This document shows, in pieces, positions 4,835 to 54,881 of a stretch of DNA of 64,000 nt (position 1 is the stretch's first letter; each line of letters starts with the position of its first letter). The stretch covers positions 62,001-126,000 of the forward strand of contig JADZAP010000005.1 of the NCBI GenBank assembly GCA_020852705.1. Direction: 5' to 3'. The translations under genes and the position numbers were made by a program. The notes below the pieces were generated by a model, which was given only the letters and a program-made list of their open reading frames with translations, ran no database searches and had not been told where the DNA came from. The DNA is from Ignavibacteria bacterium (lineage in GTDB: Bacteria > Bacteroidota > Ignavibacteria > Tepidaquicellales > OLB5).

Positions 4835-5167
4835 AATAACCTAAATCCTCATGAATTAATTTATAGTTAATTTTTCAATATTATTATTAACTTGAATATA
4901 ATTTCATACCGTTTAGGTCTCAATTAAAACATTTACCCTTGAAAATACTTCATATTTTCACTATTTTTGTATTCTAACATTGAACTATTTTAGCCCGTCT
5001 GGCTGCTAAAGCGGTTCCGGTTTATAAAGAAAAACCGTTTCTTATAAAAGTCAGGATTGTTTTTTTAATCGCTGCAAAAATTGCAGTTTTATTTCAGACT
5101 TTGCTTTGTTATTTAATTTCCGGTTTAATTAATTGATAATTGTTCTTTGTTATTTGCAAATTTCAGA

Positions 5168-5241
5168 GGGCGGTTAGCTCAGTTGGTTAGAGCGCCACGT
5201 TGACATCGTGGAGGTCACCGGTTCGAATCCAGTATCGCCCA
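5168..5241 (+). tRNA. tRNA-Val (GAC)
   Basis: Acceptor GGGCGGT/ATCGCCC, D arm GCTC/GAGC, anticodon loop TTGACAT, T loop TTCGAAT. Confidence 0.95.
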
Positions 5242-52051: not shown

Positions 52052-52411
52052 ATGGATAATCAAATATTAAAAGTTAATGATCAGGGTTTAAAAATTGAGC
52101 TGGAAAAAATGTTTTCCAGAATAAAAGTCCTAGTAGAAAAATTTAATATCACAAAAGATGAAAACAAACTGCTTAAAGATAAGGTTCTGGAACTTGAGCA
52201 TTCTTTAAGCGAATCTGAAATAAAGGTTTCAAACCGGAATTCAGAATTATTGCTTAAGGATAAAGAAATTACAGATCTTAAAAATAAAATATTAGAAGAA
52301 AGAAAAAATAAAGTTTCAACTGAGGATAAAGCACAGCTTAAATCCAGAATACGCGAACTTATGGTCAGACTGGATTCTCATCTCGAACAGAAAACAAATA
52401 ATAACTTTTAG
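52052..52411 (+). CDS. hypothetical coiled-coil protein
   Basis: 119 aa heptad-like, between pheT and zapA. Confidence 0.65.
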   Translation: MDNQILKVNDQGLKIELEKMFSRIKVLVEKFNITKDENKLLKDKVLELEHSLSESEIKVSNRNSELLLKDKEITDLKNKILEERKNKVSTEDKAQLKSRIRELMVRLDSHLEQKTNNNF

Positions 52412-52533: not shown

Positions 52534-52833
52534 ATGGACACAAAGGATATCAGAATAAAAATATTTAACAATCATTACACATTAAAAGGTGATGATGTTG
52601 AATTGCTTGAAAAAAGTGCACAATATGTAGATACCTTGATGCATAAAGTACAAAATGATATTCCTAATCAGTCTGATTTTACGGTAGCTATAGTTTCTGC
52701 TCTTAATATTGCAGAAAATTATTACAGGGAAAAGAATTCAAGTTCAGTTCTTGACCAGAATTATAAATCATTAGTAAGCGGTTTAAATGCCCAAGTAAAA
52801 GAAATTAATGATTTTATAGAAAGTAATACTTAA
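52534..52833 (+). CDS. zapA: cell division protein ZapA
   Basis: IRIKIFNNHYTLKGDDVELLEKSAQYVDTLM...VAIVSALNIAENYY. Confidence 0.88.
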   Translation: MDTKDIRIKIFNNHYTLKGDDVELLEKSAQYVDTLMHKVQNDIPNQSDFTVAIVSALNIAENYYREKNSSSVLDQNYKSLVSGLNAQVKEINDFIESNT

Positions 52834-52949
52834 GAAGCATTTTTTAAAATGGAACTTAGCTAACGTAATATAAGGTTTATTTATTATATCGTTCTTTGTA
52901 AAACAGATGAAAACTATTTGTTTTCATCACGGATAAGTAAAAAAGTTTA

Positions 52950-53197
52950 CCGCACCGACCAGCCGTAGCCAAAAATTAAATAGATCCAACACTATTTAAT
53001 TGGGGAGAACGCTCGACAATGAATGTCAATTACAGGCCTCATTCTAACTGATTTTCTTCAGTTGAAATCACCGGGATTTTTTATCCCAGAGTTTTTGTGA
53101 TCATTGGAAGTTAAAAGACATTTCGGCACTCACCCACTGTGTTGAAAGAGAGGGATCTATAACTCTTTCGCTATGGTTTTGTTGTGTGCGGTTTTTT
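52950..53197 (+). ncRNA. structured ncRNA candidate, possibly 6S RNA-like (zapA-rny intergenic)
   Basis: Termini pair CCGCAC/GTGCGG then CCGTAGC/GCTATGG; internal hairpins AATTAAATA/TATTTAATT, AACTGA/TCAGTT, GGGAT/ATCCC, GAAAGAG/CTCTTTC; ends in T6. Confidence 0.6.
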
Positions 53198-53312
53198 ATT
53201 TATTATATTTAAACCTCCGGTATTTATTAGTTTTTTATGACAAATTTGACCGGCTAAAATTTTTAAATGTATCACCCTAAATTTATATGTTAAAAATACG
53301 GAGAAATTAAAA

Positions 53313-54881
53313 ATGTTTCAGGAAATTTATGTATTAATACCTATTATCGTCATACTCTGTGCGGCGACATTTTATCTTGGCTGGATTCTGCAGAACAAGG
53401 TAACCAGAGGTAAACTTAACAGCGCAGAGGAACAGGCAAAAAGAATAATTGCTGATGGTGAAAAAGCTGCTTTAAATATTAAGAAGGAAAAACTGCTTGA
53501 AGTTAAAGATGAATGGTATAAAAAGAAGCAGGATTTCGATTCCGATTACCAGTCTAAAAAGAACAAGTTGAAATCCTATGAAAAACAGATTCAGGAAAAA
53601 GAAGAAATTTTAAGCAAAAGAATGGATGAATATGCAAGAAAGGAAAAAGGTCTGCTGAAAGTAGAAAATGATTATAATGTTAAAATTAATAATTTAAGTG
53701 AAAAAGAAACCAAACTTGAAAGCCTGATACTTGAACAGAATAATAAGCTTGAAAATATTTCAGGTTTAACTTCTGAAGAAGCTAAAACAATTTTGATGAA
53801 TAACCTTATTGAAGAAACTAAAATGCAAGCAGCCGGCAAGCTCAAGGAGATTCGTGATGAGATGAAGCTTGAAGCTAAAAAGCTTGCACGAAATCTTATT
53901 GTTCAGGCAATTCAGCGAAGTGCTGCTGATCATTCAGTTGAAACAACAGTAAGCGTTCTTAATATTCAATCCGATGAGCTTAAAGGAAGAATTATTGGAA
54001 AAGAAGGACGTAATGTGCGTGCTTTTGAAGCTGCAACAGGCGTTGATATTATTGTTGATGATACCCCAGAGGCAATTACTATTTCCGGATTCGATCCCTT
54101 TAGAAGAGAAGTTGCAAAAATTTCAATGGAAAGACTTATTTCAGACGGCAGAATCCATCCTACTCGGATTGAAGAAGTAGTTGATAAAGTAAGAAAAGAG
54201 CTTGAAGAAGAAATTATCCGCATCGGTGAAAACTCAATTATTGAGTGTGGTCTGCATGGGCTGCATCCTGAAATGATAAGGCTTGTTGGAAGAATGAAAT
54301 ACCGTACAAGTTACGGGCAGAATCTTCTGCAGCATAGCATAGAAGTTGCTCACTTATGCGGTATAATGGCTGTTGAACTTGGACTTGACCCTGTTATGGC
54401 AAAACGTGCAGGTTTACTGCATGATGTTGGGAAGGTTATAGATAGAGAAGTTGAAGGTCCGCATGCAATACTTGGTTATGAACTTGCTAAAAAATACAAG
54501 GAGCATCCTGTAGTTTGTAATGCAATTGGTGCACACCATGAAGATATGGAAATGGAAACTCCGATTGCAGTTATTGTTCAGGCATGCGATGCAATTAGCG
54601 GTGCACGTCCAGGTGCAAGAAGAGAATCAGTTGAAGGTTATGTAAAACGACTGCAAAAACTTGAAGAAGTTGCTAAATCTTTTGAAGGTGTTGGCAGAAC
54701 TTATGCTATTCAGGCAGGCAGGGAGGTTAGAGTTATTGTTGAGCATGATAAAGTAAGTGATGCTCTTGCTGACCAGCTTTCTGTTGATATTGCTACCAAA
54801 ATTCAGGAAGAAATGGAATATCCCGGACAAATTAAAGTGACCGTGATAAGAGAAAGAAGATCTGTAGCATACGCTAAATAA
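53313..54881 (+). CDS. rny: ribonuclease Y
   Basis: N-terminal TM and coiled coil; KH domain GRIIGKEGRNVRAFEAATGVDIIVDDTPE; HD domain RAGLLHDVGKVIDREVEG. Confidence 0.97.
   Translation: MFQEIYVLIPIIVILCAATFYLGWILQNKVTRGKLNSAEEQAKRIIADGEKAALNIKKEKLLEVKDEWYKKKQDFDSDYQSKKNKLKSYEKQIQEKEEILSKRMDEYARKEKGLLKVENDYNVKINNLSEKETKLESLILEQNNKLENISGLTSEEAKTILMNNLIEETKMQAAGKLKEIRDEMKLEAKKLARNLIVQAIQRSAADHSVETTVSVLNIQSDELKGRIIGKEGRNVRAFEAATGVDIIVDDTPEAITISGFDPFRREVAKISMERLISDGRIHPTRIEEVVDKVRKELEEEIIRIGENSIIECGLHGLHPEMIRLVGRMKYRTSYGQNLLQHSIEVAHLCGIMAVELGLDPVMAKRAGLLHDVGKVIDREVEGPHAILGYELAKKYKEHPVVCNAIGAHHEDMEMETPIAVIVQACDAISGARPGARRESVEGYVKRLQKLEEVAKSFEGVGRTYAIQAGREVRVIVEHDKVSDALADQLSVDIATKIQEEMEYPGQIKVTVIRERRSVAYAK

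Follow-up and report, generated by a model that had tools for sequence, protein, structure and literature searches.

A probable divergent 6S RNA in the zapA-rny gap of an Ignavibacteria bacterium

The zapA-rny gap and its predicted RNA gene

Here, we describe a predicted gene for a structured RNA in a 64,000-nt stretch of the genome of an Ignavibacteria bacterium (hereafter the window), where the zapA stop (52833) and the rny start (53313) enclose a gap of 479 nt with no open reading frame of at least 40 amino acids (features and coordinates in Table 1). A preliminary description of this DNA had noted an ORF-free gap of ~480 nt, and this was confirmed. The gene 3' of rny is coaE. Between pheT and zapA, the window encodes a small coiled-coil-like protein (52052-52411) without a Pfam match, whose position is also kept in family f19.

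Within the gap, CCGCAC (52950-52955) pairs with GTGCGG (53186-53191), CCGTAGC (52963-52969) with GCTATGG (53170-53176) and, at long range, AATGTC (53022-53027) with GACATT (53117-53122), and the closing stem runs into six T residues, so that its end resembles an intrinsic terminator; all of these elements had been named in the preliminary description and were located at exact positions. The segment has a folding energy of -79.1 kcal/mol, compared with -54.4 +/- 4.3 kcal/mol for dinucleotide shuffles (z -5.7, 0 of 200 shuffles), and a DNA search identifies 13 genomes from its genus and family that carry it with 75-85% identity, with weaker matches elsewhere in the order. With this z-score and with a structure conserved across the class (below), the proposal of a structured RNA of ~250 nt is borne out. 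The 9-bp hairpin that had been described ahead of it is present and perfect, but it lacks conservation among relatives and was rejected as a component of the RNA.

Table 1. Coordinates, in the window, of genes, predicted RNA elements and alternative hairpins at the zapA-rny locus
Feature	Position	Strand	Evidence or remark
zapA, upstream neighbour	52534..52833	+	Pfam PF05164, E 2e-12
boxA-like GTTCTTT, 5' of the RNA	52891..52897	+	followed by the 9-bp hairpin 52906-52928
9-bp perfect hairpin	52906..52928	+	between boxA-like site and RNA; not conserved; outside the RNA
6S RNA (ssrS) gene, predicted transcript body ~248 nt	52950..53197	+	R1 match 52972-53162, 54.7 bits; boundaries kept in relatives
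Closing stem, 5' side: P1 52950-52955, inner part 52963-52969	52950..52969	+	partner 53170-53191
Alternative hairpin H5 (AAUUAAAUAG/CUAUUUAAUU), 10 bp	52974..53001	+	52974-52983 with 52992-53001; exclusive with P2
Helix P2, 5' strand AUAGAUCC (GAACC in most relatives); predicted pRNA template	52980..52987	+	RNAalifold; compensatory change in 6 of 8 pairs
Central bubble, 5' strand	52988..53001	+	aligned by cmscan, in relatives, with the RF00013 5' bubble strand
Helix P3, 5' side (GGGGAG..GCU)	53002..53013	+	also seen in RF00013 alignments
Apical arm, 5' side: AAUGUC 53022-53027, conserved internal loop AUUACAGG with UUA 53030-53032, CCUC 53037-53040	53022..53040	+	
Variable apical domain, two hairpins	53041..53103	+	sequence and length differ among relatives
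Apical arm, 3' side: UUGG 53104-53107, AAGUUAAAA, GACAUU 53117-53122	53104..53122	+	
Helix P3, 3' side (GGC..CUCACCC)	53125..53135	+	pairs with P3 5' side
Central bubble, 3' strand	53136..53152	+	RF00013 alignments of relatives
Alternative hairpin H3 (GAAAGAG/CUCUUUC), P2 3' strand in loop	53144..53169	+	53144-53150 with 53163-53169
Helix P2, 3' strand GGAUCUAU	53153..53160	+	pairs with AUAGAUCC
Closing stem, 3' side (53170-53176, 53186-53191), then T6 53192-53197	53170..53197	+	
rny (RNase Y), downstream neighbour	53313..54881	+	Pfam PF12072, E 2e-50

Homology to 6S RNA and covariation of the rod

6S RNA is a small RNA that keeps bacterial RNA polymerase in check. The Rfam 6S family (RF00013) has no match at E<=10 in the window, nor anywhere in the genome, and a scan of the window region against the whole of Rfam (E<=10) returned low-complexity chance matches only. 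6S-Flavo (RF01685) was not matched in the window, its own genome or the sampled class members, and Bacteroidales-1 (RF01693), which had been named as a model to scan with, was not supported, with no match at E<=10. In other families of the class, RF00013 matches the zapA-rny gap at 9 of 20 loci with its full model and in the same orientation, scoring 49.8, 46.9, 43.8, 39.3, 38.6 and 38.3 bits, with three more at 25-31 bits (cut-off 46.4 bits; the best match spans model positions 1-187). One further class locus is above the threshold, and two loci of the window's own order (L015 and L112) give full-length, sub-threshold matches of 34.2 and 27.9 bits. Since relatives at the same locus pass the threshold and loci of the same order come as close as 34.2 bits, we attribute the miss in the window to a limit of the model.

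In the cmscan alignments of these relatives, the 6S helix beside the bubble is aligned with GAaCC/GGuUC, its far side with GGGAGC and CACCCACC across the bubble, and the apical loop element with GCC..GGAAG; the window RNA carries the same series of elements. A covariance model (R1) was trained on 18 sequences (alignment A3), all of them from other families and none from the window's order; its match to the window RNA has an E-value of 3.8e-9 for the window and of 1.8e-7 for the genome, both rough because the calibration was short. This is the single significant match in the genome, the next best being short, AT-rich and not significant. Several loci in R1, or from the families in R1, are RF00013-positive, and the window RNA can be aligned end to end with its class relatives, so that R1 and this alignment tie it to recognised 6S RNAs. 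Its one significant genome match, and the retention of the predicted gene where rny is absent, mark it as a separate, predicted trans-acting gene of one or few copies. Conserved blocks in a 24-sequence alignment are GAACCAACA, GGGAG..AGCTC, AATGTCAATTACAGGCCTC, CAGTGGAAGT.AAAAGACATT, GGCAC.CACCCAC, AGGGTTCT and the closing CCGCAC/GTGCGG followed by T.

RNAalifold, run on 36 class sequences, recovered P2 and P4 unprompted, with many compensatory changes. For the 30-pair 6S rod counted on this same alignment, 91.0% of cells are paired (82.9 +/- 0.5 in shuffles), 19 pairs have changed on both sides (9.3 +/- 1.5) and the covariation score is 0.279 (0.125 +/- 0.008), with none of 500 shuffles attaining any of the three measures. 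Covariation in homologous gaps, on which the preliminary description had made its proposal depend, is thus present. Sliding the partner by 1-3 columns lowers pairing to 37-51%, a comparison on cells paired that favours the rod because its structure was partly derived from the tested sequences; the shuffles do not preserve relatedness, and the count of compensatory pairs is the measure least open to these biases.

Among the single helices, P1 is paired in 87% of cells with compensatory change in 4 of 6 pairs, the GGG/CCC of P3 is paired in 107 of 108 cells, and compensatory change is found in 5 of 6 pairs of the apical stem P4 (one of them UA in 19 sequences and CG in 16) and in 3 of 3 pairs of P4b. 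P2 reads GAUCC/GGAUC in the window and most of its genus, GAACC/GGUUC in further genus and family members, and GAAUC/GAUUC or GAACU/AGUUC elsewhere; the best-conserved parts of the RNA include its strands and the nucleotides flanking the predicted pRNA start. The third pair of the apical CCNC/GNGG helix varies between U.U, C-G, A-U, U-A and G-U. At this pair (columns 131/220 of alignment A1; window 53039/53105), U.U occurs in 26 of 36 sequences and A-U, C-G, U-A or G-U in the other 10, and U.U is a conserved mismatch. A CAGTGG/CCACTG pairing that would turn AATGTC/GACATT into a pseudoknot was dropped, since CCNC/GNGG covaries instead and P4 is therefore nested.

The structure that emerges is a rod with a closing stem, P2, a large central bubble and an apical arm, as in 6S RNA. 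These computations show that the RNA is conserved by descent, has 6S architecture and is homologous to same-locus RNAs recognised by RF00013. With a probability of about 0.93, the RNA of the zapA-rny gap is the divergent 6S RNA (SsrS) of this Ignavibacteria bacterium; that identity had been suggested from the zapA neighbourhood and the pairing of the ends, and the RF00013 matches in relatives, R1 and the covariation of the rod all support it.

Distribution, known relatives and rival explanations

Of 197 class genomes, 171 have an R1 match, always as a single copy, and in the phylum R1 has matches in 79 of 148 genomes, 47 of these outside the class. rny lies 33-190 nt downstream in 27 of the best 30 loci of the phylum search and directly 3' of the RNA in almost all class members. 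In flavobacteria, 6S-Flavo is also directly upstream of rny, and in family f24 of the same phylum RF00013 matches lie between pheT and rny at scores below the cut-off, so that Rfam misses most of this family too. Given rny-adjacent 6S genes in the class, the flavobacteria and f24, the pheT-zapA-6S-rny arrangement appears ancient in the phylum. At loci L194-L207 (mostly f24), the RNA 5' of rny has conserved AAAGAACTAACAC and GGGTTCTTGAATCTTACAC, with RF00013 scores of 27-42 bits.

This distribution fills a gap in the map of 6S RNA, with nearly the whole class Ignavibacteria having a single 6S gene that is mostly missed by Rfam; 6S genes adjacent to zapA are found far outside the proteobacteria, and several Bacteroidota lineages have theirs 5' of rny. 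RF00013 could be extended with the alignment as a ready seed. Within the open-licence literature we found no paper naming both Ignavibacteria and 6S, and a 2014 survey in RNA Biol (as cited in PMC7366714) may list members of the Ignavibacteria or Chlorobi.

The window RNA resembles the 6S RNA of RF00013 in its length class, closing stem, P2 (GAgCC/GGuUC), central bubble, GGG/CCC helix and GCC..GGAAG apical loop element, in having zapA upstream, and in its same-locus relatives above the gathering threshold; it differs in scoring below detection, in an AU-richer P2, in bubble strands that can both form hairpins, in a large, variable, two-hairpin apical domain and in having rny downstream. 6S-Flavo shares the phylum and the place directly 5' of rny, but its model misses the window and its class. 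In Bacteroides thetaiotaomicron, which belongs to the same phylum as the window's bacterium, 6S RNA and pRNAs were detected experimentally (PMC7366714).

The position directly 5' of rny in almost all class members, together with the terminator-like stem and T6 at the RNA's end, would also suit a cis-acting rny leader, either autoregulatory or a riboswitch, that controls RNase Y through a long-range terminator. No rny was detected in the 13 genomes of family f11, yet some members retain the RNA, which adjoins coaE in the three genomes examined (L243, L244 and L245), and family f19 (L231 and L241) keeps pheT, the coiled-coil gene, zapA and the RNA while the next gene is convergent and lipid-kinase-like, not rny. 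Because the RNA is kept in both families without rny as its neighbour, and is thus not always in cis to rny, the leader is largely refuted, and the direct homology to 6S adds to making it very unlikely. The place of the 6S gene beside coaE in f11 would fit a deletion of an intervening rny.

That the minimum free energy (MFE) fold is multi-branched and that the window itself has no Rfam match might instead indicate a new class of large multi-branched RNA, unrelated to 6S and with a partial, convergent likeness to RF00013; this is extremely unlikely, as RF00013 matches the relatives over the whole length of the model with bubble, GGGAG, GCC/GGAAG, CACCCAC and GGUUC in register, matches the same locus in many lineages, and compensatory change backs P2 and the rod. 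We also consider it very unlikely that the RNA is a 6S descendant with a changed partner, such as core polymerase, and without pRNA synthesis. Its sequence has drifted beyond RF00013, and the Ms1 RNA of actinobacteria, a 6S-like RNA that binds core polymerase (PMC9130861), offers a precedent; against such a change stand the conservation of the P2 strands and of the nucleotides near the predicted pRNA start, and the pRNAs made by a Bacteroidota relative (PMC7366714).

Alternative fold, proposed mechanism and boxA-like leader

The MFE fold of the probable 6S RNA is without P2 and has the hairpin H5 instead, and H3 can form too once P2 is excluded. Constrained folding gives -72.6 kcal/mol for the P2 rod and -74.2 kcal/mol for H5 with H3 (~1.6 apart, a small gap of the kind a release switch would show), against -77.5 kcal/mol unconstrained, and the in silico pair probability of P2 is 0.07, the hairpin fold being slightly more stable than the P2 fold. 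Of 79 distinct relatives, 46 have a stem of at least 6 bp where H5 lies and 50 have one where H3 lies, and the mean longest stem is 6.1 versus 4.5 in shuffled letters for H5 and 6.4 versus 5.3 for H3 (4.9 versus 4.4 for an unrelated-segment control); P2 is better in all 79 (7.4 versus 4.1), with P2 anchors chosen by motif. Because compensatory change supports P2, MFE branching was demoted as the functional fold. The preliminary description had seen a branching richer than the 6S rod: a branched MFE fold does exist, but it represents an alternative fold plus variable apical hairpins and not another class of RNA.

In E. coli, opening of P2 during pRNA synthesis leads to a 9-bp hairpin in the 3' bubble strand and then to release (PMC8876501), and the anatomy of H3 is that of this hairpin. 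Compared with the release elements of E. coli and B. subtilis, the window RNA has an additional 5'-strand hairpin, H5; a central bubble collapse helix was not found in the window RNA by eye. We infer that H5 and H3 may be release or off-state elements; the pRNA hybrid would itself have H5 as a competitor.

From established 6S biology, the rod would mimic an open promoter for RNA polymerase with the housekeeping sigma factor, and the RNA would occupy the polymerase in nutrient-poor or stationary cells. It would also be the template for a short pRNA (predicted template 52980-52991) begun just within the 5' bubble strand, beside the P2 strand AUAGAUCC, with its start predicted 2-4 nt into the bubble strand, comparable to U44 of E. 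coli. Synthesis of the pRNA would open P2, after which the competing hairpins of the two bubble strands could arise and assist in releasing the polymerase; the main one would be H3, which has the freed P2 strand in its loop.

Of 45 non-redundant class loci, 30 have GTTCTTT 5' of the RNA, where 0.29 would be expected. It precedes the closing stem by 26-56 nt, and this variable distance argues against a promoter element. No sigma-70-type promoter was recognised upstream on the RNA strand by a scan whose scope does not extend to Bacteroidota promoters. Bacterial boxA reads GTTCTTTGAAAACT in B. subtilis and GCTCTTTAACAA in E. coli. In one relative, GTTCTTT lies 115 nt before the 16S gene; in the 16S leader of a second it was found, by reading the sequence, as GTTCTTTCAACAA; and both relatives have it once more past the end of the 16S gene. 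The comparison draws on these two relatives because no 16S gene was found in the bacterium's own assembly. These occurrences suggest that GTTCTTT, which resembles bacterial boxA, is a candidate site common to 6S and rRNA leaders. As a putative signal upstream of 6S and common to rRNA leaders, the boxA-like GTTCTTT is new here; no paper bringing boxA, 6S RNA and antitermination together was found in the open-licence literature.

By a further step of reasoning, the boxA-like site could have the RNA transcribed with the Nus antitermination machinery of rRNA and, if real, it would link a polymerase-restraining RNA to the machinery of rRNA transcription. The combined model, in which H5 and H3 take the P2 strands and so make the central bubble bistable, the RNA alternating between a rod that binds polymerase and an inactive form with two hairpins, and in which a boxA signal has 6S made by an rRNA-type, Nus-modified polymerase, is offered as a tentative and rather doubtful one. 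Elsewhere in the window, GTTCTTT (5142-5148) lies 26 nt 5' of a tRNA gene (5168-5241) and is followed by GTTATTTGCAAAT, comparable to the GTTATTGCAAAAT that one relative has in its 16S leader; several stable-RNA genes may have this boxA-like site in common.
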